33,203 nucleotides of DNA from Clostridiaceae bacterium (lineage in GTDB: Bacteria; Bacillota; Clostridia; Saccharofermentanales; Saccharofermentanaceae). Both the position numbers and the translations under genes were made by a program. The stretch spans positions 1 to 33,203 of the forward strand of contig JAAYBI010000061.1 of the NCBI GenBank assembly GCA_012718915.1, given 5' to 3'. Positions 1,986 through 31,453 of this stretch are shown here, in pieces (the stretch's first letter is position 1; each line of letters starts with the position of its first letter). Under the pieces are notes generated by a model. It made no database searches. It saw nothing but the letters and a program-made list of their open reading frames with translations, and was not told the DNA's origin.

Positions 1986-2552
1986 ATGGCAGAATCATTT
2001 GAAAAAGCAATTATCATGGACGCTTCAGCTCTCACTCGGGCAATGACCAGAATCTCTCATGAAATCCTCGAAAAAAACAAAGGCCTTGATAATCTGGTAC
2101 TAATCGGCGTTCAAAGACGTGGCGTTCCAATGACACAGAGAATTGCCGAATATCTCCATAAAATTGAAGGTGTAAAACCACCAATCGGGTATCTGGACAT
2201 CACTTTCTATCGTGATGACTTATCTATGCTCAGCGCGCATCCTATTGTAAACAGTACAGATATTCCATTCGATATTAACGATAAGAAAATTATACTCATT
2301 GATGACGTCCTATTTACCGGAAGAACCGTTAGAGCGGCAATAGAGGCGCTGTTTGACATGGGAAGACCGGCGGAAATTCAGCTGGCTATCATGGTAGACC
2401 GTGGACACAGGGAATTGCCCTTTCGACCCGACTATGTGGGGAAGAACGTTCCGACATCAAATACTGAATCGATTCACGTCGAACTCGTCGAGATTGACGG
2501 ACAAGATCGGGTTGCCCTTTTTGACGAGGTGAAAAATCATGTTGAAGAGTAA
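1986..2552 (+). CDS. pyrR: PyrR, pyr operon RNA-binding attenuation protein / uracil phosphoribosyltransferase
   Basis: PyrR binds the pyr leader RNA when UMP is high and promotes termination; most members also convert uracil and PRPP to UMP. The 188-residue protein has the type I PRPP-binding motif [13 protein letters not shown] at about 103-115 and the family segments GVQRRGVP (41-48) and [13 protein letters not shown] (68-80). I chose the ATG at 1986 because AGGAG lies 7 bases upstream. The in-frame TTG at 1962 would add eight residues from the leader and put that ribosome binding site inside the gene. The attenuator directly upstream makes the gene self-regulated. The 3' end overlaps pyrB by 14 bases, so translation is probably coupled. 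Confidence 0.97.
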
Positions 2553-3465
2553 AGATTTATTGGGCCTTAAGCAATTATCGGCAGAAGAAATCAACGAAAT
2601 TATTACCACAGCAGAAATGATGAAAATGGTTCTTGATACTAACAATAAAAAGACATCCCATCTTCAAGGCCGTTCGGTAGTCACCCTATTCTATGAAAAC
2701 AGTACACGTACGCGCTTGTCATTTGAACTAGCTTCAAAGTATATGGGTTCAGTAAGTGCTAACATTTCGACATCCGGCAGTAGTGTCAATAAAGGCGAAT
2801 CATTATTAGATACGGCAAGAACGATTGACATGATGGCGACTGACATCATTATTATGCGTCACAATCAGTCCGGTGCGCCCCATTTTATCGCCCCTCACTT
2901 AAAATCTTCTGTTGTAAATGCCGGAGATGGAATGAATGAGCATCCGACTCAAGCCTTGTTGGATATGTTCACCATGAAGTCATCGTTCGGAAAAATTGAA
3001 GGCCTAAAAGTTGCTATCTGCGGTGATATTTTTCACAGCAGGGTCGCTCGAAGCAATGTCATTGGTTTAACTAAACTTGGTGCCGAAGTGTCTCTTTTCG
3101 GACCGCCAACTATGCTTCCGATGGGTATCGAGAAAATGGGTTGTAAAGTAGCCGGATCGGTTCATGAAGCCGTTGAAGGCGCAGATGTCGTAATGGGGCT
3201 TCGCGTTCAACTTGAGCGTCAGAACCAATCGCTGTTTCCTACCGTTTCTGAGTACGCAAACTTTTACTCGATTACTCAAGATGTGCTGAAATTAGCGAAT
3301 AAAAATGCAATTGTCTTGCACCCGGGACCATGTAATCACGGGGTAGAGCTTCCCACGGTTGTATACGACAGCCCGCAATCGCTCATTAATGAGCAGGTTA
3401 AGAATGGTGTCGCCATTCGCATGGCCATTCTTTATATGCTTATGGCCAGGAGGAATCAACAATGA
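2539..3465 (+). CDS. pyrB: Aspartate carbamoyltransferase catalytic subunit
   Basis: PyrB joins carbamoyl phosphate and L-aspartate to give N-carbamoyl-L-aspartate, the second step of UMP synthesis. The 308-residue protein has the usual catalytic-chain length. The carbamoyl-phosphate signature FYENSTRTR is at 51-59, and a HPGP motif at 261-264 with CNHGVEL following forms the aspartate side. The common form of that segment is N-R-G/D, so His 267 in place of Arg is a small variation. No pyrI regulatory chain is in the cluster, which fits an unregulated Bacillus-like enzyme controlled through PyrR. A GAGGTG ribosome binding site within pyrR precedes the ATG. The end overlaps pyrC by 4 bases (ATGA). 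Confidence 0.97.
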
Positions 3466-4718
3466 AAACAATAATTAGAAATGCAAAAGTCATGAATGAA
3501 GATAATTTGTCCGATTTTTACATATCGGACGGACTCATATCGGCTCCCTTTTCGGATACAGCAGATATTGAATTTGATGTCATGGGTGCTTCTCTATTTC
3601 CCGGGCTGATTGATGCTCATTGTCATTTGAGAGAGCCCGGATATGAATATAAAGAAGATATTGAAAGTGGGACCCGATCAGCCGTCAGAGGTGGATATAC
3701 ATCAGTATGCCCAATGCCGAATACTTCTCCGGTATGTGACAGCCCGGCTATTGTTCAATCGATAATGAAGATTGCATCTCAAAAGGCTTCTTGTAATGTA
3801 TTTCCGATTGGAGCGGCCAGCAAGGGTCTTAAGGGTCTGGAGCTATCCGAAATCGGTCTTATGAAGCAAGCCGGTATTGTTGCCGTTTCTGACGATGGAC
3901 TTCCCATAAAGACCGCAGCGCAACTCCGCAAAGTAATGGAGTATGCATCGTACTTTGACATACCCGTATTAAACCACTGTGAAGATATCTCTTTGGCAGA
4001 AGGTGCGATGAACGAAGGCGCTCTTGCGACCTCTATGGGTTTACGGGGCATCCCTGAGTTAGCCGAAAACATAATGATTTCAAGAGATGTTTTAATCGCC
4101 GAGTATCTTAATCTGCCCATTCATATATGCCACGTGAGCACACGCAAAGGCGTCGAAATTATACGAGATGCAAAACGTCGCGGCGTCAAAGTAACAGCCG
4201 AAACGTGTCCGCATTATTTTACACTTACGGAAAGTGCGTGTGAGGGTTATAACACCTATGCAAAAATGAATCCGCCTCTTCGAACTGAAACTGATCGTCA
4301 ATCAATCATTGAGGGCATTGCGGATAGTACAATTGATATAATTGTTACCGACCATGCACCACATCATGAAGACGAAAAAATACTCGAATTTTCGCTTGCG
4401 CTGAATGGGATAATCGGATTTGAGACAGCGTTTTCGCTCGGATATACTTACCTCGTCAAGCCCGGACATGTTGAATTAGGTCGCTTCATTGACGCAATGA
4501 CGAAGCGTCCGTCGGATATTTTGAAATTGAACCGTGGAACGTTAGATATTGGTGCACCTGCTGATATTGTCTGCTTCGACCTGGAGCATGAGTATAAATT
4601 CGACGCTCGAAATGTATTAAGTAAATCCAAAAATACGCCTTTTGATGGATATGATTTATTCGGAAGATGCATACTTACCATTGTAGGAGGAAAATTATCG
4701 TATGAAGAACTTTGCTGA
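3462..4718 (+). CDS. pyrC: Dihydroorotase (class I)
   Basis: PyrC cyclises N-carbamoyl-L-aspartate to dihydroorotate in the cytoplasm. The 418-residue protein is of the longer class I amidohydrolase type. The zinc-binding DAHCHLREPG is at 51-60 (His 53 and His 55), CHVS and CPHYF histidines lie mid-protein, and the catalytic TDHAPHH segment is at 296-302. The C-terminal part (GAPADIVCFD) is the usual amidohydrolase beta-domain return. The start overlaps the pyrB stop (ATGA), after AGGAGG eight bases upstream, and the end overlaps pyrF by 17 bases, so the gene sits within a tightly coupled translation unit. Confidence 0.97.
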   Translation: MKTIIRNAKVMNEDNLSDFYISDGLISAPFSDTADIEFDVMGASLFPGLIDAHCHLREPGYEYKEDIESGTRSAVRGGYTSVCPMPNTSPVCDSPAIVQSIMKIASQKASCNVFPIGAASKGLKGLELSEIGLMKQAGIVAVSDDGLPIKTAAQLRKVMEYASYFDIPVLNHCEDISLAEGAMNEGALATSMGLRGIPELAENIMISRDVLIAEYLNLPIHICHVSTRKGVEIIRDAKRRGVKVTAETCPHYFTLTESACEGYNTYAKMNPPLRTETDRQSIIEGIADSTIDIIVTDHAPHHEDEKILEFSLALNGIIGFETAFSLGYTYLVKPGHVELGRFIDAMTKRPSDILKLNRGTLDIGAPADIVCFDLEHEYKFDARNVLSKSKNTPFDGYDLFGRCILTIVGGKLSYEELC

Positions 4719-5634
4719 TCAACTCGTCGAGAAAATCCGAATCATGAAGAATCCGACCGTTATGGGTCTGGACCCTGTATTAGATTATGTTCCCGACCAT
4801 ATTATTGCAGAGAGTACTCAGCGTTACGCAGATCCTTCTAAGGCATCGTCCCAAGCTATCCTTGAGTTTAACAAAGCGCTTATTGATGCGACATCGGATA
4901 TAATACCTGCCGTAAAACCACAATTCGCATATTACGAAATGTACGGTGTCAACGGTATCAAAGCTTTAGTAGAGACGATTGATTACGCGAAATCAAAAGG
5001 AATGCTTGTGATTGCAGATGCAAAGCGCAATGACATTGGCAGTACGGCACAAGCTTACGCTACTTCGATTCTCGGAAAGACGACGCTCTCAGACGGACAG
5101 CAAAAAGAAATGTTTGGTGCAGATGCCGTGACGCTCAACGGATACCTTGGTATTGACGGTATAGAACCGTTTATTTCACTGGCCAAATCTTTTGGGAAAG
5201 GTATGTTCATTTTAGTTCATACGTCAAATCCGTCATCAGTACAGATCCAAGAACTAGAGCTCAAAGACGGGCGCTTGCTTTATGAAGCCGTTGCAGAGCA
5301 GGTTACGGATTGGGGAAGTACTTTAGTCGGAAAGCATGGGTATTCATCCGTCGGTGCAGTGGTCGGTGCTACATGGCCCGAGCAAGCAAAAAAACTGAGA
5401 GAAATAATGCCCAACACTTTCTTCCTGGTTCCTGGCTATGGTGCTCAAGGCGGAGATGCTCAAACAGTCAAGTCATGCTTCGACAAAAATGGCGATGGCG
5501 CGATTGTGAACGCATCCAGAAGTCTTATGTGTGCATATAAAAAGAATAATTCCGTTGACCCTAAAGATTTCATGATGGCGACACGCGAGGAAGCGATTCG
5601 CATGAGAGAAGATTTAAATAACGCCATATTCTAA
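4702..5634 (+). CDS. pyrF: Orotidine 5'-phosphate decarboxylase (type 2)
   Basis: PyrF decarboxylates OMP to UMP, the last step of the pathway. The 310-residue length and the N-terminal GLDPVLDYVPD (22-32) place it in the longer type 2 group rather than the 230-residue enzymes. The catalytic D-x-K-x-x-D signature is DAKRND at 106-111. The segment LVPGYGAQGGDA near residue 250 forms the phosphate-binding end. AGGAGG at 4685-4690 lies 11 bases before the ATG, inside pyrC. Seventy-nine bases containing a likely promoter separate it from carB, where other Bacillota usually have carA. Confidence 0.97.
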   Translation: MKNFADQLVEKIRIMKNPTVMGLDPVLDYVPDHIIAESTQRYADPSKASSQAILEFNKALIDATSDIIPAVKPQFAYYEMYGVNGIKALVETIDYAKSKGMLVIADAKRNDIGSTAQAYATSILGKTTLSDGQQKEMFGADAVTLNGYLGIDGIEPFISLAKSFGKGMFILVHTSNPSSVQIQELELKDGRLLYEAVAEQVTDWGSTLVGKHGYSSVGAVVGATWPEQAKKLREIMPNTFFLVPGYGAQGGDAQTVKSCFDKNGDGAIVNASRSLMCAYKKNNSVDPKDFMMATREEAIRMREDLNNAIF

Positions 5635-5713: not shown

Positions 5714-8700
5714 ATGCCAAAAAGAACAGATGTCAGTCGCGTTATGGTTATCGGCTCCGGGCCTATTATTATCGGACAAGCAGCAGAATTTGATTATGCG
5801 GGAACGCAAGCGTGTCGTGCACTAAAGCAAGAGAATTTCTTTGTTGTTTTGGTTAACAGTAATCCTGCGACCATCATGACTGATCCCGGTGTAGCAGATA
5901 AAATCTACATTGAACCTCTGAATATTGATGTCATCAAGAAAATTCTTCTTGACGAGAAGATCGATGGCTTAGTCGGAATGCTGGGTGGACAGACGGGACT
6001 GAATTTTTCCATGGAGCTGGCTGAATCCGGTTTTCTTGATGAAAACGGCATAATTTTAATGGGAACTCAGGCCGACGGGATTAAGAGGGGAGAGGATCGG
6101 GAAGATTTTCGCGAAGCAATGCTTCGGATTAATGAGCCATGTATACCTTCTTCAACGGCCATGAGCATTGATGATTGCGTTCGAATTGCGAACGATATCG
6201 GTTATCCGATTATCGTAAGACCGGCATTTACTTTGGGCGGCACCGGCGGCGGTATCGCCGCGACTGAAGAAGAGATGATTGAGATAGCAGTTGTCGGCTT
6301 GGAAGCCAGTCGTGTGCATCAAGTATTAATTGAAAAATGCATAGCCGGGTGGAAAGAAATAGAATTTGAAGCGGTAAGAGATGCAAACGGTAACAAAGTG
6401 ACCATTTGCTCGATGGAAAATTTTGACCCGGTTGGCGTCCATACCGGAGACTCCATTGTTGTGGCTCCCGCTCAGACGCTCACGGACCATGAGTATCAGA
6501 AGCTTCGTACATCTGCACTCAAAATTGTTGAAGAATTGGAAATCGTAGGCGGATGTAACGTCCAATTTGCTTTGCATCCGACTTCGGGCGAATACGCAGT
6601 CATCGAAGTTAATCCGCGTTTGTCGCGCTCATCTGCATTAGCATCTAAGGCGACAGGATACCCGATTGCTAAGGTAGCTTCAAAAATCGCTTGCGGATAT
6701 ACACTTGATGAGATTCCTAATGAAGTTACCGGAAAGACCAAAGCCTGTTTTGAACCGGCGGTGGATTATATTGTTGTAAAAATTCCCAAATTTCCTTTTG
6801 ATAAATTTGTTAAAGCCAAGAAGACATTGGGAACGCAAATGAAGGCGACCGGAGAAGTGATGTCGATCTCGAATAATTTTGAATCGGCGCTCATGAAAGC
6901 GATTCGCTCTCTGGAACTCGGAATAATGGGCCTTTATATACCGACTATTAATCAATTATCAGACGAAGAACTGTTTCAGCATTTATGTATTGTTGAAGAT
7001 AAGCGTTTGTTTTATCTGTCGGAAGCGATTCGAAGAGGACAAACCATAGAATATCTTTATGATTTAACAAAAGTCGACAAGTTCTTTTTAAATAAACTTC
7101 AGCATTTGGTAACCGTCGAAGAGCAAATTCGTTCTTGTAATACACCCGAGGACATATCCGAACAATTATTTAGAAAAGCGATATACTACGGCTTCCCGGA
7201 TGCCTATATCGCCAAACTGACAAATGTAACGACTGATATCATTCGTGATCTCAGAAAGTCTCTTAAGATGAATTATAGCTACAAAATGGTCGATACTTGT
7301 GCCGGTGAATACACTGCGATAACACCGTATTATTATTCAACTTTTGATAAAATGAATGAAGCCGTTCGAACGGAACGCAAAAAGGTAATTGTTTTAGGAT
7401 CCGGCCCGATTCGAATCGGACAAGGGATCGAGTTTGACTATTGTTGTGTTCACTCGTCATGGGCGCTTCGAGACATTGGCTATGAATCAATAATAATTAA
7501 CAACAATCCGGAAACGGTCTCCACGGATTATGATACATCCGATCGTCTCTATTTCGAACCACTAACGGCAGATGATGTCAGAGCTGTTATCGAGAACGAA
7601 AAACCTGATGGATGCATTTGTCAGTTTGGCGGGCAGACTGCTATTAAGTTAATCAAAACAATCTCCGATATGGGTGTCACAATTTTTGGCACTTCGGCTG
7701 ATATGGTCGATGCGGCCGAAGACCGCAAGCGTTTTGACAAAATTCTTGAAGATTGTAATATCAAAAGACCGGAAGGTAGTACGGTATTCACCGTTGAAGA
7801 AGCATTATCACTGGCAGAAAAACTTACCTATCCGGTACTTGTTCGTCCATCCTATGTTCTGGGCGGTCAAGGGATGGCGATAGTGACCAATAATGATGAA
7901 ATGATTGAGTACATGCGTATCATTAACCTTGTGGAGCAGGAGCATCCCATCCTGGTCGATAAATACCTCCGTGGTGTAGAACTTGAAGTGGATGCCGTTT
8001 GTGACGGCAAGAACATTTTGATACCGGGGATAATGGAACATCTTGAGCGTGCAGGTGTCCATTCCGGCGATTCGATTTCGATTTTTCCTGCATATATTCC
8101 CGAAAAAGTCAGAGATACAATCATCGACTACACTCGAAAATTGTCATTGGCGCTAAATGTCATCGGGCTGATTAATATTCAGTTCATCCTGTTTAATGAT
8201 GAGGTTTATGTCATTGAGGTTAATCCCAGATCATCCAGAACCGTTCCTTATATCAGCAAAGTGACCGGCATTCCGATTGTGGATGTTGCAACGCGGATTA
8301 TGATGGGCGCCAGTTTATCCGATTTTTCTTTCGGAACCGGTTTGTATGCCCGATACCCATGGGTTTATGCGATAAAAGCGCCGGTGTTTTCGTTTGAAAA
8401 ATTACACGATGTGGATGTGAGTTTGGGGCCGGAGATGAAGAGCACCGGAGAAGTTCTGGGTCTGTCCGTGACTTATGCCGAAGCCATGTTCAAAGCGATT
8501 TTAGCGTCCGGCTTTAAGTTTCCTCAAAAAGGAGCGGGTGTCTTATTAACGGTCAAAGATAGCGACAAATCAGATTTGGTGCCGCTTGCGGATAAACTTT
8601 TAGCGCTGGGCTATGAGCTCTATGCAACCGGTGGAACTGCGAATTACTTGAATCGATACGGAATTCCGACAAACAGTGTTCGAAAAATGGAAGAAGCTGC

Positions 8701-9004
8701 ACCTAATGTGATATCTTATATCTCAGAAGGCAAAATCAAAATGCTCGTTAACACAGAGTCTAACAGTACCGTCATGATTAATAACGGATTTCGTTTGAGA
8801 AGAAAGTGTATTGAGCACGGCGTTCCGACCATTACATCTCTCGATACACTTGTTGCGGTCATCGATTGTCTGCAAAATCAGACTCAACCTAAGGATATTA
8901 AGCCTTATGAACTGGGCAGCTTTGCGGATATTGTCAGATCCACAAGAAACGAAATCGTTCCGATGAATGAGGCCCCGCCTGAGAATAAAATGCTGAAGAA
9001 GTGA
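5714..9004 (+). CDS. carB: Carbamoyl-phosphate synthase large subunit
   Basis: CarB makes carbamoyl phosphate from bicarbonate, ammonia and two ATP, using ammonia delivered by the CarA glutaminase. The 1096-residue protein has two homologous ATP-grasp halves. The first includes VNSNPATIMTD and RPAFTLGGTGGG, the second includes NNNPETVSTDYD and RPSYVLGGQGM. A C-terminal MGS-like allosteric domain around 940-1050 (ELYATGGTANYL) follows. It is slightly longer than the typical 1060-1075 residues because of a charged C-terminal tail. No glutaminase domain is fused and no carA is adjacent, so the small subunit must be encoded elsewhere if the enzyme uses glutamine. The stop overlaps the pyrK start by 4 bases. 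Confidence 0.97.
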   Translation: MPKRTDVSRVMVIGSGPIIIGQAAEFDYAGTQACRALKQENFFVVLVNSNPATIMTDPGVADKIYIEPLNIDVIKKILLDEKIDGLVGMLGGQTGLNFSMELAESGFLDENGIILMGTQADGIKRGEDREDFREAMLRINEPCIPSSTAMSIDDCVRIANDIGYPIIVRPAFTLGGTGGGIAATEEEMIEIAVVGLEASRVHQVLIEKCIAGWKEIEFEAVRDANGNKVTICSMENFDPVGVHTGDSIVVAPAQTLTDHEYQKLRTSALKIVEELEIVGGCNVQFALHPTSGEYAVIEVNPRLSRSSALASKATGYPIAKVASKIACGYTLDEIPNEVTGKTKACFEPAVDYIVVKIPKFPFDKFVKAKKTLGTQMKATGEVMSISNNFESALMKAIRSLELGIMGLYIPTINQLSDEELFQHLCIVEDKRLFYLSEAIRRGQTIEYLYDLTKVDKFFLNKLQHLVTVEEQIRSCNTPEDISEQLFRKAIYYGFPDAYIAKLTNVTTDIIRDLRKSLKMNYSYKMVDTCAGEYTAITPYYYSTFDKMNEAVRTERKKVIVLGSGPIRIGQGIEFDYCCVHSSWALRDIGYESIIINNNPETVSTDYDTSDRLYFEPLTADDVRAVIENEKPDGCICQFGGQTAIKLIKTISDMGVTIFGTSADMVDAAEDRKRFDKILEDCNIKRPEGSTVFTVEEALSLAEKLTYPVLVRPSYVLGGQGMAIVTNNDEMIEYMRIINLVEQEHPILVDKYLRGVELEVDAVCDGKNILIPGIMEHLERAGVHSGDSISIFPAYIPEKVRDTIIDYTRKLSLALNVIGLINIQFILFNDEVYVIEVNPRSSRTVPYISKVTGIPIVDVATRIMMGASLSDFSFGTGLYARYPWVYAIKAPVFSFEKLHDVDVSLGPEMKSTGEVLGLSVTYAEAMFKAILASGFKFPQKGAGVLLTVKDSDKSDLVPLADKLLALGYELYATGGTANYLNRYGIPTNSVRKMEEAAPNVISYISEGKIKMLVNTESNSTVMINNGFRLRRKCIEHGVPTITSLDTLVAVIDCLQNQTQPKDIKPYELGSFADIVRSTRNEIVPMNEAPPENKMLKK

Positions 9005-9786
9005 GTAAATGTATGGCTAAGGAATATACGGTTACACTTAAAGAAAGTATTCGCGTCAATCCGTCAACACACTTTCTGTCTTTCTATTGTCCTGAGATTG
9101 CTCTCAATGCATTGCCGGGGCAATTTGTAGCGATCTCGAGTAATCAGTTTCTTAAACGACCATTCGGAATTGCGCAGGTGGACAAGGACAAAGGCACATT
9201 TTCAATCGGTGTTCGAATTGTTAAGGATGGCACCCGATATTTAGCAACTTCGCCAATCGGCACTGAGTTTGAAGTGATGGGTCCTCTGGGAAATGGTTTT
9301 TCGATTGAAAAGGATCGACCTTTACTATTAGTCGGCGGGGGCACCGGTGTATTCCCGTTGAGATTTCTGCAAAGTTACGCGCAAGAGCATTCAATCCCAT
9401 TCTACTCTGTTAATGGTTTTCGTTGTGTTGATGACGCTTGTTTTATTGACGGTGAACGGAACAGTAATTGCATCGTCGCGACGGATGCCGGTGATTTCGG
9501 GGTTAAGGGAAATGTTCTGGATGCACTGGAGATGATTCCATTTGATATGATTCGCGGATCTACGGTATGCACGGTCGGGCCGGAAATTATGATGAAGCAT
9601 GTCGCCTCGTGGGCCGAATCTAAAGGTCTCACTTGCTATGTATCCCTCGAGAAGCGTATGGCTTGCGGTATCGGTGTTTGCTTGGTATGCACATGCAAAA
9701 CGAAGTCAGACAAGGAACCGGGATATGAGAATAAGCGTTGTTGCAAGGACGGACCGGTATTTCTGTCCGCGGAGGTTATATGGTAG
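9001..9786 (+). CDS. pyrK: Dihydroorotate dehydrogenase electron transfer subunit
   Basis: PyrK passes electrons from PyrD to NAD+ through FAD and a [2Fe-2S] cluster. The 261-residue protein has an FAD-binding RPFGIA at 53-58, a pyridine-nucleotide GGGTG at 112-116, and the cluster cysteines C222, C227 and C230 (C-x4-C-x2-C) with C247 or C248 as the fourth ligand. The GTG at 9001 overlaps the carB stop (GTGA), which suits translational coupling. An ATG four codons later (9013) is an equally possible start and neither has a strong ribosome binding site. Together with the class 1B PyrD it marks a NAD-linked dihydroorotate dehydrogenase. The gene overlaps pyrD by 7 bases. Confidence 0.95.
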   Translation: MSKCMAKEYTVTLKESIRVNPSTHFLSFYCPEIALNALPGQFVAISSNQFLKRPFGIAQVDKDKGTFSIGVRIVKDGTRYLATSPIGTEFEVMGPLGNGFSIEKDRPLLLVGGGTGVFPLRFLQSYAQEHSIPFYSVNGFRCVDDACFIDGERNSNCIVATDAGDFGVKGNVLDALEMIPFDMIRGSTVCTVGPEIMMKHVASWAESKGLTCYVSLEKRMACGIGVCLVCTCKTKSDKEPGYENKRCCKDGPVFLSAEVIW

Positions 9787-10700
9787 ATTTATCCGTAACG
9801 ATCGGTAATGTCAGATTCAAAAATCCAATTATTCTGGCTTCCGGTACTTGTGGTTTCGGCCGCGAACTTGAACAGTATATTGATTTCTGCTCGGTTGGCG
9901 CATTATCTTCAAAAGGGTTAACACTACGACCACGACAAGGGAATGATGGCTGCAGGGTCGCTGAAACGCCTTCAGGTATGCTTAATAGTGTCGGTTTACA
10001 AAACCCCGGAGTTCGCTATTTTGTTGAGAATGACTTGCAGTTTATGGCGTCTTTGCCGACAGGTGTTATCGTCAATGTCGCCGGACATTCTACGGAAGAT
10101 TATGTTGAAGCAGTACGCTTCCTTGAGCCGCATCGCGAATTTATCGATGCCATAGAACTTAATCTTTCTTGCCCGAATGTCAAAGAGGGTTGTATGGTCA
10201 TCGGTGCGTCTCCTGAAGCACTATTTCAGTTGGTGTCACTTGTTCGAAAAGAAACCACTTTGCCTCTGTGGGTTAAACTGACACCTAATGTTACGGATAT
10301 TTCTTTAACCGCTTTAGCGGCTCAAAGAGCAGGAGCCGATGCCGTTGTTGCAATTAACACACTTCTTGGGATGGCCATTGATGTCAAGACTCGTCGACCA
10401 ATCCTCAATAATAATACCGGCGGGCTATCGGGTCCCTGCATTAAGCCTGTCGCACTTCGGATGGTCGAGGCGTGTGCCTCCGTTCTTGATATTCCGGTCA
10501 TCGGTTGCGGAGGCATCAGTACAGGAGAAGATGTCTTGGCATTTATGATTGCCGGAGCTTCCGCGGTTCAAATTGGCACGTCGACTTTGATTCATCCGTC
10601 TGCTTGTGAGACAATAACCGAAGAGGTTGTTGCACTCGCGGAAGATTTGAATATTTCGAGTATAAGTGAGATTGTGGGAACTCTTAATCTTTGGAGGTAA
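9780..10700 (+). CDS. pyrD: Dihydroorotate dehydrogenase, class 1B catalytic subunit
   Basis: PyrD oxidises dihydroorotate to orotate on FMN. The 306-residue protein shows the class 1 features: SGTCGFG at 21-27, the orotate-binding NSVGLQNPG at 69-77, and the catalytic-cysteine motif NLSCPNVK at 128-135 (Cys 131). Class 1B is supported by the neighbouring pyrK. I chose the ATG at 9780, which has GGAGG 4 bases upstream and starts with the conserved VDLSVTIGNVRFKNPI. The upstream in-frame ATG at 9738 would add 14 residues that merely read through pyrK out of frame. pyrE-like follows after 4 bases. Confidence 0.97.
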   Translation: MVDLSVTIGNVRFKNPIILASGTCGFGRELEQYIDFCSVGALSSKGLTLRPRQGNDGCRVAETPSGMLNSVGLQNPGVRYFVENDLQFMASLPTGVIVNVAGHSTEDYVEAVRFLEPHREFIDAIELNLSCPNVKEGCMVIGASPEALFQLVSLVRKETTLPLWVKLTPNVTDISLTALAAQRAGADAVVAINTLLGMAIDVKTRRPILNNNTGGLSGPCIKPVALRMVEACASVLDIPVIGCGGISTGEDVLAFMIAGASAVQIGTSTLIHPSACETITEEVVALAEDLNISSISEIVGTLNLWR

Positions 10701-10704
10701 ATTT

Positions 10705-11571
10705 ATGAACGATCCAATAATTGATTCTTTGTTTTCAACGAATGCCGTTCGTGTCAGTGACCCCGAAGCCCCCTTTTGGTATGCGTCAGGAATGCTTGGT
10801 CCATTTTACATTAATACACACTTTTTACTTCATAATGAGATGGAAGCCGCTCGCTTATTGAGCATTATTGAGACAGCATCCGGCACGGATCGATTTGCAA
10901 TGCCTCATATTTTACTGGACCATTTACTTGCTTTTTATGAACGCTCAGAGTCATTCAAACAAGTCACTGACGCTATTGTCGCCGCATGCCGCGGATTATC
11001 TTTTGATTTTGTGTCCGGTGGCGAGCGAAGAGATTATTTTTTCTCGATTTTGCCGGCATATTTTCTTCACAAACCACATTTGTTTATTTTTAAAGATTTT
11101 CAATCGGTTTATGCTGATGAATCAATGACAGATTGTGTCTTAGCTACCGAGGCAGATCTTGATGGGAAAACTGCACTTCATATCGCAGACCTTGTTACCG
11201 AAGCATCAAGTTATTTACGCGTGTGGGTGCCTGTGATTAAGAATCTGGGAGCTAAAATAACAGACACGATTGCAGTTGTTGATCGCGTGCAGGGCGGTCG
11301 AGAGATTTTGGCCGGAGAAGGAATATCATTACATGCTTTGACGGCAATTGATACTCAATTGTTTCAAAATGCGCTTGCAATGAAATTAATCTCAACTCAT
11401 CAATATGAAATGGTTCTTGATTATATGAAGGATCCGGATACATATGTCCGAAACTTCTTTTCGACTCATCCGGGTTATGTTGAAGCGCAGATTCAGCTTG
11501 GCGGTAAAGCAAAAGAACGAGCAGAGCTTGCGATTTCAAAAGGCTATGCTGATCCGGTTTGCGAGCTCTGA
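10705..11571 (+). CDS. PyrE-like phosphoribosyltransferase fold protein (presumed orotate phosphoribosyltransferase, divergent)
   Basis: It occupies the pyrE slot, where orotate and PRPP should become OMP. The 288-residue protein is longer than ordinary PyrE (about 210). Partial resemblance is visible: WYASGMLGPFYINTHF (25-40) recalls the PyrE N-terminal S-G-x-x-S-P-x-Y-I-D hood. VSGGERRDYFFSILPAYFLHKPHLFIFKD (103-131) recalls the core strand-helix. DRVQGGREILAGEGISLHAL (193-212) recalls the D-R-x-x-G-G-R-E end. The PRPP motif, normally D-D-V-x-T-x-G, reads ADLVTEASS (161-169), so one acidic residue and the glycine are lost. I see no K-x-x-x-K-x-H-G loop. The ATG has GGAGG 7 bases upstream; the earlier in-frame TTG at 10666 is a pyrD shadow. 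Orotate phosphoribosyltransferase activity is inferred from context only. Confidence 0.7.
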   Translation: MNDPIIDSLFSTNAVRVSDPEAPFWYASGMLGPFYINTHFLLHNEMEAARLLSIIETASGTDRFAMPHILLDHLLAFYERSESFKQVTDAIVAACRGLSFDFVSGGERRDYFFSILPAYFLHKPHLFIFKDFQSVYADESMTDCVLATEADLDGKTALHIADLVTEASSYLRVWVPVIKNLGAKITDTIAVVDRVQGGREILAGEGISLHALTAIDTQLFQNALAMKLISTHQYEMVLDYMKDPDTYVRNFFSTHPGYVEAQIQLGGKAKERAELAISKGYADPVCEL

Positions 11572-11578
11572 ATCGAAA

Positions 11579-12157
11579 ATGAATTCCATTGAAAGAGTCT
11601 CGCCGATTTCAGAAATTCCGTATGTGTTGATTCGTGCTAAGAAAAAGACCATAAGTATTCATGTCAAACCCGGTCAATCCGTCACGGTTCGAGCGCCCAA
11701 TAATGCTTCAACGCGATATATCGATGCTTGTGTTGATGAACGAGCACCCTGGATTTCTGAGCAACAGAAACGTTTATCTCAAAAATTGATGCTGCCAATA
11801 ATTTCCGATAAAGATAAGCCTTTGATCAAGAAAGAGATTTTGAGCAAGGCTCAATACTATTTGCGAGACTATACCGGGAAGCTGCCACAAAAAATTTACG
11901 TGAGATATGGTTCATCGCGATGGGGGAGTTGTTCCGGTCTTGGTAACATTAGTTTAAACGGATATCTGTACTTTCTTCCGGATTCGCTTTTTGAATATGT
12001 GTTGTGGCATGAAGTGACTCACTTGTATCATCTGAACCACTCCCCATTATTTTGGCGTGCGCTCTCAGAAAAAGTGCCTCATCCAAAATCCTTCAGAAAG
12101 ATTTTGGCGACTTATTCGATTCCGGAAAATAACCGGACGGACTCGATTGAAGCTTGA
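11579..12157 (+). CDS. YgjP/SprT-like zinc metalloprotein (DUF45)
   Basis: This 192-residue protein belongs to the YgjP (DUF45, M48-like) family of small zinc-dependent hydrolases of uncertain substrate. It has the family signature YGSSRWGSCSGLGNISLN at 110-127 and the zinc motif HEVTH at 144-148, with the third His at 154 (H-x2-H-x5-H pattern of this family). The start is uncertain. The ATG at 11579 lies 7 bases after the pyrE-like stop and has no clear ribosome binding site, suggesting translational reinitiation. The frame stays open upstream to 11444, but that part overlaps the preceding gene and does not resemble the family. It is probably the last gene of the pyr transcript by position only; no link to pyrimidines is evident. 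Confidence 0.88.
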   Translation: MNSIERVSPISEIPYVLIRAKKKTISIHVKPGQSVTVRAPNNASTRYIDACVDERAPWISEQQKRLSQKLMLPIISDKDKPLIKKEILSKAQYYLRDYTGKLPQKIYVRYGSSRWGSCSGLGNISLNGYLYFLPDSLFEYVLWHEVTHLYHLNHSPLFWRALSEKVPHPKSFRKILATYSIPENNRTDSIEA

Positions 12158-19888: not shown

Positions 19889-22550
19889 TTCATTAATGAC
19901 TTATGATCAAATTGATCGAAATGCATTAACTCCAATGATGCTTCAGTATTTAGAGATGAAGGTCGGGTGTGAAGATGCCATATTAATGTTCCGTCTCGGA
20001 GATTTCTACGAGATGTTTTTCGACGATGCGATTACTGCTTCAAAAGTTCTGGAACTTGCCTTGACCGGCCGTGATTGCGGACTCGCATGTCGAGCCCCGA
20101 TGTGTGGCGTTCCACATCATGCTGCTACTAATTATATGCAACGGCTCCTTTCCGCAGGATATAAAGTCGCCATTTGCGACCAGATCGAAGATCCGGCCAC
20201 TGCGAAAGGTATTGTCAAGCGCGCCGTTACTCGGATTCTTACGCCGGGCACGTCCATCGATTTAAGTCTTTTCGATGAAAAGAAGAATAATTTTCTGGTT
20301 TGTATTTATCGCGTTGGCATGCAATTTGCAGTAGCCGCGGCAGATATTGCTACCGGAGAAATTGAAGTGACACAACTTGTGATGGGTAATACACAGGTTC
20401 AATTGTTGAATTTATTAATGCGATATTCACCGTCAGAAATCATTTGCAATCCGGATTTTTCTAAATCGGATGTTTTCAGACAAGTTGAGTATTATTTTTC
20501 TGTTCCGTTAACCGTAATCGCTGCACAACAATTTTCTAACCCTGATGTTGAGCGCGTTGCTTCGTTGTCTCAAGATTTTGCGAAAAAAGACGATAAACGA
20601 ATGATGATATCTTGCGTCTCATCACTTCTTTATTATTTGGATGATACGCAAAAAACGACTGTGACCCATTTTCGGGCACTTCGTGTTTACAATATCGCAG
20701 ATAAAATGGAACTTGATATCCCTGCAAGAATGAATTTGGAATTAACGACTACAATTCGTTCATCTTCAAAAAAAGGCAGTTTGTTGTGGTGCATAGATTT
20801 AACGCAAACGGCAGTCGGCGGTCGTTTGCTTCGCAAGTGGTTGGATGAGCCACTTCTGAATATTGAAGAAATAATTTTTCGACAGGACGCAATAGAAGAT
20901 GCGCTTAATGCTTTCATTCATCGTCAAGCTCTTATTGATGCTTTGGCAGGTTTTTCTGATATTGAAAGACTGTCTTCGAAAATCGCATTAGGTACTGTTT
21001 CTCCGAGAGACTTGCTTTCGTTACTCCGTTCCATTCAGAAATTACCATCAATTTATGATTCGGCATCGCAATTCAATCGTGGTATTTTGGGCTGGGCTAA
21101 TGAGCATTTTGATGATTTATCAGATATTCGACAACTGTTATCCGCTTCTATATCTGATGATGCTCCTTTATCTTCAAGAGAAGGTGGCGTCATTCGTGCC
21201 GGTTATTCCGATGAAGTCGATCAACTACGAAATTTAACAACGGATGCTAAGCAATATATTCTGGATTTAGAAGCGGCCGAAAGAGAGAAGACCGGGATCA
21301 GAACCTTGAAAATCGGATATAACAGAGTGTTTGGATATTATCTTGAAGTATCTAAAGGTCAAGTCGGACTTGTTCCTGAGCATTATGTCAGAAAGCAAAC
21401 GTTGGCCAACGCTGAGCGATACGTCACAGATGAATTAAAAAAACTGGAAGATTCGATTCTTGGAGCAAACTCTAAGTTAGTTGCATTGGAATATCAATTA
21501 TTTTGTGACATTCGAATTCAGGTTCAAAAAGCCTGTGATAGAATTTATGCCGTTGCTTCGGCAGTTGCCGTATACGATGTTGTCTCATCTCTGGCAGAAT
21601 TGTCTCAACGAGAGGGCTACGTTCGCCCAATTGTTGATGCGTCGACTGACTTAATTATTGAAGAAGGTCGTCATCCGGTTGTAGAGAAAATGATGAAGGG
21701 CGAGCGATTTATTCCCAATGATACATTGATGAATGAAGAAAGTCGTCGAATTATGGTATTGACCGGTCCGAATATGGCCGGTAAGTCTACTTATATGCGT
21801 CAAGTCGCTCTGATTGTTTTGATGGCGCAAATGGGGGCCTTTGTACCTGCAAAATATGCCAGGATAGGTGTAGTTGATCGCATTTTTACGCGAATCGGTG
21901 CATCCGATGATATATCTTCGGGGCAATCTACTTTCATGGTAGAAATGAACGAAGTATCTTCAATACTTCGACATGCTACCGGAAAAAGCCTTCTGTTGCT
22001 CGATGAAGTCGGAAGAGGAACAAGTACTTTCGATGGCTTAGCTATTGCGTGGTCAATCTTGGAATTCATTTGTTCTCCGTCGATACTTTTTTCCCGAACT
22101 ATTTTTGCAACTCATTATCATGAGCTAAATCTTCTGGCAAATAAACTGCCCGGGTTATTCAATGCCCATGTTGAAGTTCAAAAACATGACGGTGAAGTAC
22201 TGTTCCTTCACAAGATTGCTGATGGCGGTACGGATGACAGTTATGGCATTGAGGTTGCTCGTCTTGCAGGCGTGCCCAATGATGTCATACAAAGAGCACG
22301 GTCGATTTTAGAGGTGCTTGAATCTACAAAAATCAGCACCAGCGAACAGGTCGAGGATCCCGATCGATTGTCTGAAGTAATTGAATCCGTTCGGCCGATG
22401 CCGGGTCAAATTCAACTAGATTCCGCCGGAAAACATTTTTCCAAAGCGGATCCCATACGTTCTGAATTAGCCAACATGGATATTTCTACCATGACGCCTC
22501 TTGAGGCGATGAATTTATTGTATGTCCTCATCGAAAAAGCCAAGGAATAA
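19881..22550 (+). CDS. mutS: DNA mismatch repair protein MutS
   Basis: MutS finds mismatches in newly made DNA and recruits MutL. The 889-residue protein has the full MutS1 layout. The mismatch-inserting F-x-E motif lies in GDFYEMF near the N-terminus, followed by the connector, lever and clamp domains. The ATPase has Walker A GPNMAGKS at 629-636 and Walker B LLLLDEVGRGTSTFDG around 700-715. The ATG overlaps the end of miaB, with GGAG 10 bases upstream. A 23-base gap separates it from mutL. Nothing unusual is seen in the catalytic motifs. Confidence 0.98.
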   Translation: MSDSLMTYDQIDRNALTPMMLQYLEMKVGCEDAILMFRLGDFYEMFFDDAITASKVLELALTGRDCGLACRAPMCGVPHHAATNYMQRLLSAGYKVAICDQIEDPATAKGIVKRAVTRILTPGTSIDLSLFDEKKNNFLVCIYRVGMQFAVAAADIATGEIEVTQLVMGNTQVQLLNLLMRYSPSEIICNPDFSKSDVFRQVEYYFSVPLTVIAAQQFSNPDVERVASLSQDFAKKDDKRMMISCVSSLLYYLDDTQKTTVTHFRALRVYNIADKMELDIPARMNLELTTTIRSSSKKGSLLWCIDLTQTAVGGRLLRKWLDEPLLNIEEIIFRQDAIEDALNAFIHRQALIDALAGFSDIERLSSKIALGTVSPRDLLSLLRSIQKLPSIYDSASQFNRGILGWANEHFDDLSDIRQLLSASISDDAPLSSREGGVIRAGYSDEVDQLRNLTTDAKQYILDLEAAEREKTGIRTLKIGYNRVFGYYLEVSKGQVGLVPEHYVRKQTLANAERYVTDELKKLEDSILGANSKLVALEYQLFCDIRIQVQKACDRIYAVASAVAVYDVVSSLAELSQREGYVRPIVDASTDLIIEEGRHPVVEKMMKGERFIPNDTLMNEESRRIMVLTGPNMAGKSTYMRQVALIVLMAQMGAFVPAKYARIGVVDRIFTRIGASDDISSGQSTFMVEMNEVSSILRHATGKSLLLLDEVGRGTSTFDGLAIAWSILEFICSPSILFSRTIFATHYHELNLLANKLPGLFNAHVEVQKHDGEVLFLHKIADGGTDDSYGIEVARLAGVPNDVIQRARSILEVLESTKISTSEQVEDPDRLSEVIESVRPMPGQIQLDSAGKHFSKADPIRSELANMDISTMTPLEAMNLLYVLIEKAKE

Positions 22551-22573
22551 AGACAGCTCTGAGAGGTAGATGG

Positions 22574-24571
22574 ATGAGTAGAATCAATCAACTCAGTGAA
22601 CAAGTAGCGAATGCGATTGCCGCCGGTGAAGTTGTCGAGAGGCCGGCTTCAGTTGTTAAAGAACTCATTGAAAATGCTTTAGACGCCGGTGCAACAAGTA
22701 TTTCAATCGAAATTGAAGATGGCGGCATTAAGCTGATTCGAGTAACGGACGATGGCTGCGGCATGGACAAGGACGATGCATATAAAGCATTTTCATGTCA
22801 CGCGACCAGTAAAATTATTGAACTCGAAGATCTGGAAGCCATTTATACAATGGGTTTTCGCGGCGAGGCTTTGGCCAGCATCGCTGCTGTCGCAAAAGTT
22901 GAGCTGTTAACTTGTTTGCCGAATCAGAACATCGGAACTCAAGTCAGAATTGAAGGAGGTAAGCATATCTTTACCTCGGAGGCATCCGGCGTTAGAGGGA
23001 CCATAATTACTATAAGAGATTTATTTTTCAATCAGCCGGCCAGGTATAAATTTCTTAAAAAGGACCACACCGAAGCTCAATATATCACAATCTTGTGCGA
23101 GCGTTTCGTTCTGATACGCCCGGACATATCATTTAAGCTAATCAATAACGGCAAGCCAATTCTTATTTCCCCCGGGAATGGAAATTCTAAGGATGCACTA
23201 TATTGTATCTATGGTCCTGAAGTCGTCGAACAGACGCTGTCGGTTGACTACAAGCAATCATCGGTTATTGTTCGTGGTTTTGCAGGAAAGCCGGCAATTG
23301 CCAGAAAGGGAAGAGGGGAGCAGACAATTTTTGTAAACGATCGATTAATTCGTTCAAAGACGATTTCAGCAGCTATTGAACAAGCTTATCGTCCATATCT
23401 GATGAAGGGCAGGTTTGCATTCATTGTCTTGTTCGTGCAAATCCCCTCTGCTCTTATTGACGTCAACGTTCACCCTCAAAAATCAGAAGTTCGTTTTTGG
23501 AATGATTCAGAAGTATTTCGCGCAATTTTTCATGCGTTGCAAAATACCCTCAAACAATCCGATCTGACCTCTGAACCCGGTCACTTGGATCCCGTCACCA
23601 GCGCTACGGATAATAAAAGCGATTCCGATTCGTCAAAACAGTTAGGGTCTTCATGTTTGTCAGAAAATGTAATGATTTCGAGTCCAAATAATGAGTCGGA
23701 TATCAAAGCGGCGATTGATAATGCTTTGACGGCGTCCGATGTTGATCCATCGAAGAATTCTGACATAGGTAAGATGTTACCTCATGAATTACTATCGCTC
23801 AATTATTCTCAAGGTTTTAATAAGTATGGAAAGGCCAACTATTTTAAAGAAGCGCCACTGAGTGAGTTAAGCTCTCAAACACCTTCTGACAATCATGCAG
23901 ATCGTCAATTGGGCATGGATCATGTTTCGATAAATAGCAATATGTCTTTCTCCGGTGAACCTGATAAGGATAAGCGAGATGCTCTTTCAGAATTACTCCA
24001 GGCACGGTTTGTAGGCGTATTATTTGCAACGTACATTTTATTGGAATCGAACTCGGCATTCATCATTATTGACCAACACGCGGCTCATGAGAAAATTATA
24101 TATGAAAGACTGGTTGACCGTAATCGATCAAAAGATTATTTAAAAGCACAATATTTAATCACGCCTCAATTGATAAGACTGTCTCGAGCTGAGGTTTTGA
24201 TGGTTCAGTCGAATCAAGACCGATTAAATGAATTAGCTTTTGATATTGACTTAATTGGCGATTTTGAGATTACTGTTCGAGCAGTTCCTTCTTTCGCAAG
24301 CGATTCGGATATCGCTGTACTCGTTCGAGATGTTCTGCAATCTCTGGATATTAAGAATAATCATTTGGAACAAGATATCTATCATCATTTGGCGACTGCG
24401 GCGTGCAAAGCTGCTGTCAAGGCGAATGACCTACTTGATGTTTCTGAAGTTCAAGGCTTGATAAAGGATTTGACCATACTCGAAAACCCATACCACTGTC
24501 CGCATGGCAGGCCTATTATTGTGCGTTACGAGAAGTCTGACATTGAAAAATGGTTTAAACGCATCGTGTAG
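22574..24571 (+). CDS. mutL: DNA mismatch repair protein MutL (endonuclease type)
   Basis: MutL couples mismatch recognition by MutS to strand nicking and excision. The 665-residue protein has the GHKL ATPase N-terminus (AIAAGEVVERPASVVKELIENALDAGA and GFRGEALASI) and a poorly conserved Ser/Asp-rich linker at about 335-470. The C-terminal domain carries the endonuclease motif DQHAAHEKIIYE starting at residue 500, an ACKAAVKAND helix, and a CPHGRP metal-binding end. These show the latent-nuclease type used by bacteria without MutH. GAGAGG lies 7 bases before the ATG. miaA follows after 15 bases. Confidence 0.98.
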   Translation: MSRINQLSEQVANAIAAGEVVERPASVVKELIENALDAGATSISIEIEDGGIKLIRVTDDGCGMDKDDAYKAFSCHATSKIIELEDLEAIYTMGFRGEALASIAAVAKVELLTCLPNQNIGTQVRIEGGKHIFTSEASGVRGTIITIRDLFFNQPARYKFLKKDHTEAQYITILCERFVLIRPDISFKLINNGKPILISPGNGNSKDALYCIYGPEVVEQTLSVDYKQSSVIVRGFAGKPAIARKGRGEQTIFVNDRLIRSKTISAAIEQAYRPYLMKGRFAFIVLFVQIPSALIDVNVHPQKSEVRFWNDSEVFRAIFHALQNTLKQSDLTSEPGHLDPVTSATDNKSDSDSSKQLGSSCLSENVMISSPNNESDIKAAIDNALTASDVDPSKNSDIGKMLPHELLSLNYSQGFNKYGKANYFKEAPLSELSSQTPSDNHADRQLGMDHVSINSNMSFSGEPDKDKRDALSELLQARFVGVLFATYILLESNSAFIIIDQHAAHEKIIYERLVDRNRSKDYLKAQYLITPQLIRLSRAEVLMVQSNQDRLNELAFDIDLIGDFEITVRAVPSFASDSDIAVLVRDVLQSLDIKNNHLEQDIYHHLATAACKAAVKANDLLDVSEVQGLIKDLTILENPYHCPHGRPIIVRYEKSDIEKWFKRIV

Positions 24572-29331: not shown

Positions 29332-31008
29332 TTATATATTTATACCACGGTTTTGAATCATCATGTTAATCGAACTAATTACGGCCCTCAACGACGATTT
29401 TGTCACTGAACTAGAAATTCCGGCGCCCAGATGTTTTTGTTTATTAACGTCCTCGATCTCAACATATGTAATTGCAGCTGAATCAGATCCGCTTTTCATG
29501 GCGTGCTCGTTATACATCGTAATGCTGACTTTTTCGCCGGTATGCTTGTAGAATCCGTCACAGAATGCATCCAATAAACCGTTACCTGAACCTTGTATTT
29601 CGATTTTATTGCCATTTTTCAATAAGGTCACATAGACATTGACATGGCTTTCGCTCAGGGACTCCTCCTTATACCCTGCTAATTCATAAGGATATTTGAT
29701 ATTTACAAATTTGTCATCGAACAGATCAAAAATCTGTTTTCCGTTCAGTTCACACTGCATTTGATCGGATACTGACGTACACAGGGCACCAACAGCCTTT
29801 TGGAATGGTTTGGGCAAGTGCAATCCAAACTGGTTTTCCAGTATATAAGATACACCGCCTTTTCCGGATTGACTGTTGATTCTGATAATCGGGTCGTAGC
29901 TGCGACCCACATCCATCGGATCTATCGGTAAATATGGAACCTCCCAATGATCCGGGTGAGCCTGCATTGCTTTCATGCCTTTATTTATCGCATCTTGATG
30001 TGATCCTGAGAACGCGGTAAAGACTAATTTACCGGCCCACGGATGACGAATGTGAACTTCCAGATTCGTAGCTTCTTCATAAGCCTCTATAACACGATTC
30101 ATATCAGAGAAATCCAAACCCGGATCAATTCCGTGCATATACATATTCATAGCAATGGTAACTATATCTGCATTACCTGTTCTTTCGCCGTTACCAAACA
30201 AAGTGCCTTCGACACGATCTGCGCCGGCCATCAAACCCAGCTCCGTAGCCGCCACCGCAGTGCCTCGATCATTGTGCGGATGAATAGAAACGATGATTTG
30301 ATCTCGCCATTTCGTGTTTTTGCAAAAATACTCCACTTGATCCGCAAAAACATTTGGTGTAGACATTTCAACGGTTCCGGGCAAATTGATTATTGCTTTT
30401 TTTGCAGAAGTCGGCTGCCAAACATCCAAGACATGATCGCAAATTTCAACAGCAAAATCGGGTTCGGTGCCAGAAAAGCTCTCTGGTGAATACTCAAAAA
30501 ACCATTCGGTACGGCTGTCATCTTTTTCAACTGCTTCCATAATCATTTTGGCACCGCTGACTGCCAGTTCAATACACTCCGTTTTTCCAAAACGGAATAC
30601 CACTTCACGTTGCAAAGTCGACGTTGAATTATACAGGTGAACTACTGCTTTCGGCGCACCTCTCAAAGCCTCGATAGTCTTTGCAATAATGTGTTCCCTG
30701 GACTGTGTCAAAACTTGAATTGCCACATCGTCCGGTATCATATCGTTATCAATCAGATATCGGCAAAACTCAAATTCCGTATCCGATGCTGCCGGGAAAC
30801 CAATCTCGATGGTCTTGAATCCGATATCAACCAGAAAGTTAAAATAATTCAGCTTTTGTTCCAAATTCATCGGAATTTCTAATGCTTGATTTCCGTCTCG
30901 TAAATCGACGCTACACCAAATCGGGGCTTTTGTGATTTCTTTGGATGGCCAGTCACGTTCCGATAAATGAACTCCCGGCATTTTTGAATATCTGTTTGCA
31001 TTTTTCAT
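29332..31008 (-). CDS. leuA: 2-isopropylmalate synthase
   Basis: LeuA condenses acetyl-CoA with 2-oxoisovalerate, the first committed step of leucine synthesis. The 558-residue protein is of the longer LeuA type with its own C-terminal regulatory domain. The N-terminal TIM barrel carries the metal-binding RDGNQ at 37-41 and the HPHNDRG signature near 240, followed by the GNGERTGNAD segment. The C-terminal LeuA allosteric domain, around 430-555, ends with GAGISSSVTKSSLRAVISSINMM, where leucine feedback would act. I chose the ATG at 31008 because GGAGG (31017-31021) lies 8 bases upstream; an in-frame ATG five codons earlier precedes that site. A leucine T-box controls it. No leuBCD follows in this window. 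Confidence 0.97.
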   Translation of the reverse strand: MKNANRYSKMPGVHLSERDWPSKEITKAPIWCSVDLRDGNQALEIPMNLEQKLNYFNFLVDIGFKTIEIGFPAASDTEFEFCRYLIDNDMIPDDVAIQVLTQSREHIIAKTIEALRGAPKAVVHLYNSTSTLQREVVFRFGKTECIELAVSGAKMIMEAVEKDDSRTEWFFEYSPESFSGTEPDFAVEICDHVLDVWQPTSAKKAIINLPGTVEMSTPNVFADQVEYFCKNTKWRDQIIVSIHPHNDRGTAVAATELGLMAGADRVEGTLFGNGERTGNADIVTIAMNMYMHGIDPGLDFSDMNRVIEAYEEATNLEVHIRHPWAGKLVFTAFSGSHQDAINKGMKAMQAHPDHWEVPYLPIDPMDVGRSYDPIIRINSQSGKGGVSYILENQFGLHLPKPFQKAVGALCTSVSDQMQCELNGKQIFDLFDDKFVNIKYPYELAGYKEESLSESHVNVYVTLLKNGNKIEIQGSGNGLLDAFCDGFYKHTGEKVSITMYNEHAMKSGSDSAAITYVEIEDVNKQKHLGAGISSSVTKSSLRAVISSINMMIQNRGINI

Positions 31009-31061
31009 TATTATTTCCTCCATCTATTTTGAATTCGTATTTTTGATGCTAAGTGATAGGA

Positions 31062-31127: not shown

Positions 31128-31164
31128 AAAAAAAACCTCTCATCTCTAATACAGAGACGAAAGG
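31128..31164 (-). terminator. Terminator of the leuA T-box
   Basis: A 12-bp stem (31153-31164 with 31136-31147, including G-T pairs) closes a 5-base loop and ends in a run of eight T on the minus strand (A at 31128-31135). Its 5' arm is next to the T-box antiterminator sequence, as expected for a conditional terminator. Confidence 0.93.
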
Positions 31165-31453
31165 TATAAATATACTTCCGCGGTACCACTCTAATTCGCC
31201 AATTTAGGCGCTCTTACAGATACAAGGTTGCCCTGATATCCTGCCACTGTAACGGTTGGCCTCCGACTCCATCTAATAGTGATAATCACGTTCAACGAGC
31301 GCACTCCCAGGTGAGTTCAAAAGATTCTCAGACATTGCCTTGCACCCACCGGCAACTCTCTGTAGTCGAAAATTCTTTCTACTGATCCTTATCATCGTGT
31401 TTGGTAACGAATATTCAATTGTCGAATTTCAGAACGATTCATATGAATCGATT
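31128..31453 (-). promoter_or_regulatory. Leucine T-box riboswitch controlling leuA
   Basis: The minus-strand leader has the T-box core AGAGTGGTACCGCGG (CCGCGGTACCA on plus at 31178-31188) whose TGGT pairs with the uncharged 3' ACCA. Upstream, the stem I signature (CAGAGAG followed by GTGGGTGC) precedes the specifier region TTGAACTCACC, with the specifier codon CTC (Leu) at 31313-31315. The terminator lies directly downstream of the T-box. Uncharged tRNA-Leu (GAG) should favour the antiterminator and switch leuA on. The specifier reading is by comparison with known leucine T-boxes; the 5' limit is set at the predicted transcription start. Confidence 0.95.

Follow-up and report, generated by a model that had tools for sequence, protein, structure and literature searches.

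A divergent clostridial lineage of probable orotate phosphoribosyltransferases in the pyrE position of the pyr operon

The pyr operon studied here raises a simple question: which protein of this Clostridiaceae bacterium converts orotate into OMP? The operon lies in a stretch of 33,203 nucleotides (contig JAAYBI010000061.1), which we call the window, and its pyrE slot, directly after pyrD, holds a forward-strand ORF of 288 residues plus stop (10705-11571, ATG at 10705), as the initial annotation had described. That annotation left two readings, a non-canonical orotate phosphoribosyltransferase (OPRT) lineage or a regulator with a true pyrE elsewhere. Our findings strongly support a non-canonical OPRT, because the family to which the protein belongs excludes PyrE from its genomes, co-occurs with PyrB, keeps its operon position and carries an OPRT-type hood. 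Judged from sequence comparison, the gene very probably encodes the OPRT (PyrE) of this bacterium and represents a distinct clostridial lineage standing in for canonical PyrE. A literature search of open-licence papers returned no description of the family and no biochemical or genetic data on it.

Operon setting and the search for another OPRT

The operon runs in one direction on the forward strand and comprises pyrR (1962-2552; NF003549, 254.9 bits), pyrB (2539-3465; TIGR00670, 313.9 bits), pyrC (3462-4718; TIGR00857, 375.1 bits, above the cut-off), pyrF (4702-5634; TIGR02127, 279.8 bits), carB (5714-9004), pyrK, encoding the dihydroorotate dehydrogenase electron transfer subunit (9001-9786; NF000798, 158.6 bits, below the cut-off of 219), and a class 1 pyrD (9780-10700; NF005574, 394 bits), followed by the ORF at 10705-11571. 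Four bases separate the end of pyrD from the ATG at 10705, and a GGAGGT stands just upstream of it (10694-10699). CarB was named from its ORF sequence and has homologues that recur in syntenic loci; it is placed within the operon, flanked by pyrF and pyrK, and carA is located on another contig (C13:7908-9062).

Several other features were recorded in the window. The ORF 3' of the PyrE-like gene (11444-12157) appears metallopeptidase-like from its HEVTHLYHLNH motif, has no NCBIfam match at 1e-20 and is the same neighbour in many loci of the order; miaB and mutS also lie 3' of the operon. A T-box leader (RF00230, 119.9 bits) occupies 31150-31404 on the reverse strand, 5' of a 2-isopropylmalate synthase-like ORF (29332-31023).

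The genome, which is 96% complete, gave 12 PRT-domain matches. Those that were read comprise two Hpt proteins, two PRPP synthetases, Upp, Xpt, ComF, PyrR and an OPRT-like protein on contig C104; except for Xpt and PyrR, these names were assigned by reading the sequences. Across the genome, TIGR00336 reached at most 20.8 bits, for PyrR, against a cut-off of 106.8, and no canonical pyrE was found. Beyond the 288-residue ORF, the PRT-domain and TIGR00336 searches produced no convincing OPRT candidate, in agreement with the earlier statement that this ORF is the only one.

The C104 protein (22346-22984; locus L013 of genome G000) is 213 residues long and has a hood-like FATRHSHINYFVD segment without the D-D motif. 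Its type is patchily distributed (21 of 196 class genomes), occurs beside canonical PyrE too and is missing from most family-bearing genomes; it is therefore not a general OPRT, and on these grounds the paralogue was ruled out as the true enzyme.

The existence of this second OPRT-like protein, together with the altered PRPP motif and catalytic loop described below, is what would favour regarding the operon gene as a PRT-derived regulator or pseudo-enzyme, similar to PurR, kept in the operon while an unrecognised gene elsewhere supplies the OPRT. We consider this improbable, given the distribution of the C104 type, the presence of PyrR in the same operon and the lack of any match of the 288-residue protein to DNA-binding families in Pfam or NCBIfam. 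The true pyrE elsewhere that such a regulator was thought to imply is contradicted by the genomes themselves, as canonical pyrE is absent here and from 66 of the 67 family-bearing genomes of the class. Moreover, neither so strict an exclusion of PyrE nor the retention of the gene with pyrD, pyrK and pyrF after loss of pyrB and pyrC would be expected of a regulator.

Distribution of the family and of canonical PyrE

Homologues were detected in 49 of 58 relatives, as single copies with 39-82% identity; in one of them (G043), an insertion interrupts the match. A profile of 25 members (A1) recovered the family from 67 of 391 class genomes with E-values below 1e-80 (E < 1e-80), and a phylum-wide draw placed it, outside the class, in just one further family. 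Relatives were not found in PHROGs or in the viral contigs searched, and the sole plasmid match, on a Streptomyces plasmid, covers 26% of the query.

The distribution of canonical PyrE, called at E <= 1e-13, is nearly complementary. It is present in 275 of the 391 genomes, whereas 50 have neither type and only G341 has both. About 47 genomes with both would be expected and one was observed (Fisher p 1.8e-41, a significance overstated by ignoring phylogeny). The alternation extends to close relatives: G046 carries canonical PyrE, whereas its genus-mates carry the family, and G036 similarly differs from the relatives in its own family. PyrB above the cut-off accompanies the family in 60 of 67 genomes and PyrE alone in 260 of 274, as opposed to 10 of the 50 genomes with neither; several of the seven family carriers without PyrB are incomplete. 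The ten PyrB-positive genomes with neither PyrE type (G089, G183, G227, G234, G240, G308, G340, G387, G405 and G414), some of them incomplete, may include holders of yet another type of OPRT.

Synteny was inspected in 40 loci from many families, and in most the gene directly follows pyrD. In four loci of a single family (L115, L118, L120 and L121), it is divergent to the operon, and in L123 it lies away from the operon, before miaB and mutS. The loci L120 and L121, from the reduced genomes G173 and G239, retain pyrF, pyrK, pyrD and the family gene; pyrB and pyrC are not beside it, and PyrB was not found anywhere in either genome, a gene set that suggests the use of imported dihydroorotate or orotate. 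The gene is thus the sole candidate, excludes the other PyrE and co-occurs with the pathway, and this phyletic and syntenic pattern is the one expected for an orotate-using enzyme.

The same survey bears on whether the gene is intact. An unusual motif and the absence of any curated model above its cut-off could indicate a decaying or artefactual gene, arising from a frameshift or an error in assembly, in a bacterium no longer able to make pyrimidines de novo. Full-length open frames nevertheless occur in dozens of genera, the operon is intact with carA present elsewhere, and the window gene and its homologue in L045 differ by a dN of 0.125 and a dS of 1.44, the latter near saturation, giving a dN/dS of about 0.09 and indicating strong purifying selection. 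Eleven positions are invariant across 71 sequences (S28, N37, G106, R108, R109, D110, K130, D162, S168, S169 and R194), while A161, L163, T165 and A167 are each kept in 69; these counts leave out locus L128, which is mis-framed in the wider alignment. This conservation already refutes decay or artefact, which we regard as scarcely credible. The description of the PRPP motif as eroded was accordingly misleading: the replacement residues are invariant or nearly so and, with the low dN/dS, point to an active site that is rebuilt and maintained, in a family that is not decaying.

Composite architecture and active-site residues

No Pfam or NCBIfam model matched the 288-residue protein above its cut-off, which suggests that members of the family are often left unnamed in public records. 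The top NCBIfam model is nonetheless an OPRT equivalog, NF001729 (E 1.7e-10; 40.6 bits, cut-off 245), and 25 of 25 family members match it as well. The protein falls short of the cut-offs for canonical PyrE (TIGR00336, 15.5 bits against 106.8, and the PRK00455 equivalogs) and of that for adenine phosphoribosyltransferase (APT; NF002634, 20.1 bits against 170), whose PRPP motif also differs. By profile comparison, residues 2-248 align with OPRT at an hhalign probability of 98%, and the type I PRT core reaches 98% against OPRT and APT alike. The best single-sequence PDB match is the human-type OPRT domain of UMPS (2wns, E 6.8e-9, residues 152-217). An AlphaFold2 model built from two sequences only, the window protein and that of L045, had a pLDDT of 39, too low for a confident structure.

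The segments differ in their affinities, although the profiles behind this comparison are small (6 sequences for APT, 2 for the 4ohc type). Residues 1-60 (10705-10884) form an OPRT-type N-terminal hood, PFWYxSGxLGPxYINTHF, which matches E. coli-type OPRT at E 2.7e-7 and the 4ohc type at 1.8e-6, has no match to APT and compares with 0.0024 for the best of 40 column shuffles. The helical stretch at residues 62-99 (10888-11001), whose boundary as an insertion is uncertain between about 45 and 85, has no counterpart in OPRT (E 0.2 or worse) and matches residues 24-56 of APT (E 1.5e-5; best of 60 column shuffles 0.0064). Taken as one segment, residues 56-140 match APT at E 1.6e-11 and OPRT barely, while residues 140-216 match both and the core scores equally against the two. 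As a control, E. coli-type OPRT also matches APT around the pyrophosphate (PP) loop (E 1.7e-7, 37 columns from APT residue 54); therefore, the peculiarity of the family is the stretch before that loop. Residues 205-250 (11317-11454) correspond to OPRT-type C-terminal helices (E 2.2e-6 to the 4ohc type, none to APT), and residues 251-288 (11455-11568) form an extension without a match in the segment profile comparison.

These boundaries refine the earlier account of the length. The protein had been described as about 80 residues longer than standard PyrE and measures 75 more than E. coli PyrE (213 residues). Its last 75 residues had been said to lack a counterpart in PyrE, which holds for approximately 250-288, whereas 205-250 matches the 4ohc-type helices (E 2e-6); the other extra length is internal, at about 62-99, missing in OPRT and present in APT. 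The 75 additional residues thus comprise an APT-like stretch and a C-terminal extension. What appears to be new is this composite architecture, an OPRT hood and C-terminus around an adenine-PRT-type front core, a look that may reflect an ancient intermediate instead of a fusion.

Such affinities might also place the gene among adenine or other purine phosphoribosyltransferases that reached the pyr operon by chance, a reading to which the APT-like front core and the absence of apt from most genomes of the order, this one included, would lend some weight. It is very improbable, since neither the hood nor the C-terminus matches APT whereas both match OPRT, the family alternates with PyrE, and cells with a full operon would then be left without an OPRT. 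An alternation of the family with apt was rejected, because five of seven apt-positive relatives carry the family.

The active-site positions are altered in a consistent manner. Alignment with OPRT places T or A at K26, R109 at K73, an aromatic residue or Leu at R99, K130 at K100, A161 at D124, D162 at D125, T165 at T128, A167 at G130, S168 at T131 and R194 at R156. Residues 104-114 (SGGERRDYFFS, 11014-11046) form an APT-like pyrophosphate loop in which E107 is kept in 68 of 71 members and G105, F113 and S114 are invariant within A1. Residues 130-136 (11092-11112) are a remnant of the catalytic loop. The K-x-x-x-K-x-H-G pattern was correctly reported as not visible; of the canonical R-K-x-x-K-x-H-G, only the K100 position is retained, by the invariant K130, and the positions of K103, D104 and H105 vary among the 71 members. 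ADLVTEASS is present at 161-169 (11185-11211), as first described, with A161 in 69 of 71, D162 in all, T165 in 69, E166 in 58, A167 in 69, and S168 and S169 in all; the family motif, A-D-L-V/I-T-E-A-S-S, departs from the canonical D/E-D-V-x-T-x-G-x-x. R194 (11284-11286), aligned with the VDR/LDR of OPRT, is found in 71 of 71 and accompanies the hood as an OPRT-specific element. In OPRT, R156 takes part in orotate binding, and arginines like R109 bind pyrophosphate.

The catalysis, substrate contacts and choice of compensating residues proposed here are read from the alignments. The enzyme would convert orotate and PRPP to OMP and PPi, between the PyrD and PyrF steps of the same operon. Orotate would be held by the hood (residues 1-60) and R194, and PRPP would sit on the type I PRT core, with E107 and R109 acting in the APT-like pyrophosphate loop, D162-L-V-T-E-A-S-S serving as phosphate loop with Ala for the usual Gly and Ser for Thr, and K130 retained at the K100 position. 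The family-specific invariants R108, D110, H125, H159, Y170 and W174 probably replace the lost K103/H105 loop and D124. Against the OPRT reading stand the missing K103, K26, H105 and one PRPP-motif acid, the equally APT-like core and the seven carriers without PyrB.

Some of these losses are known from other enzymes. Acetylation of K26 and K103 in E. coli OPRT removes 71% and 96% of activity and abolishes complementation, although K103 is missing in C. botulinum OPRT and K26 in several others (PMC10087573). The M. tuberculosis OPRT has a hood that covers the substrate on closing and a PRPP motif to which the 5-phosphate binds (PMC5430920). Single departures at some positions thus have precedents (4ohc, C. 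botulinum), and none was found for the full combination.

Significance and comparison with known systems

By curated pyrE models, about one sixth of the sampled class genomes would be pyrimidine auxotrophs, yet they very likely make OMP; a missed pyrE affects metabolic models and genetic tools such as pyrE counter-selection with 5-FOA. If the enzyme is active, two features regarded as hallmarks of OPRT catalysis, the lysine of the loop and the first acid of the PRPP motif, would be replaceable, and the invariant residues would offer a defined set for mutational tests. We lean towards the broader view that the family is a further architectural class of OPRT, one that phosphoribosylates orotate and replaces canonical PyrE across many clostridial families; it would combine an OPRT hood and C-terminus with an APT-like front core and a rebuilt site from which the lysine of the catalytic loop and one acid of the PRPP motif are missing.

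With E. coli and Salmonella PyrE (TIGR00336; 1ORO, 1LH0), the family shares the pathway slot, the hood motif F-x-x-x-SG-x-x-x-P-Y/F-x-x-N, the positions of D125, T128, K100 and R156, and the order of core elements. It differs in having T/A at K26, R at K73, F/Y/L at R99, A at D124 and A at G130, in losing K103 and H105, in adding the stretch 62-99 and the extension 250-288, and in scoring far below the cut-off. APT (TIGR01090) resembles it over residues 62-140, a segment that takes in the E-x-R of the PP loop and the helix preceding this loop; unlike the family, APT lacks the OPRT hood and C-terminal helices and has an F-R-D-V/I-T segment and a D-D-x-x-A-T-G-G motif. Human-type OPRT (2wns) shares VTxxSS and the DRxQGG segment but differs in its motif E-D-V-V-T-S-G-S-S and its loop RRKETKDYG. 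The nearest OPRT type by profile is that of 4ohc and NF001729 (PRK00455.1-3). The 4ohc protein retains E-D and the lysines of an RKKPK loop and lacks both the APT-like stretch and the extension; like the family, however, it carries T in place of K26, GGE within the PP loop, C-terminal helices and a PRPP loop, EDLTTDSRS, that is also devoid of glycine.
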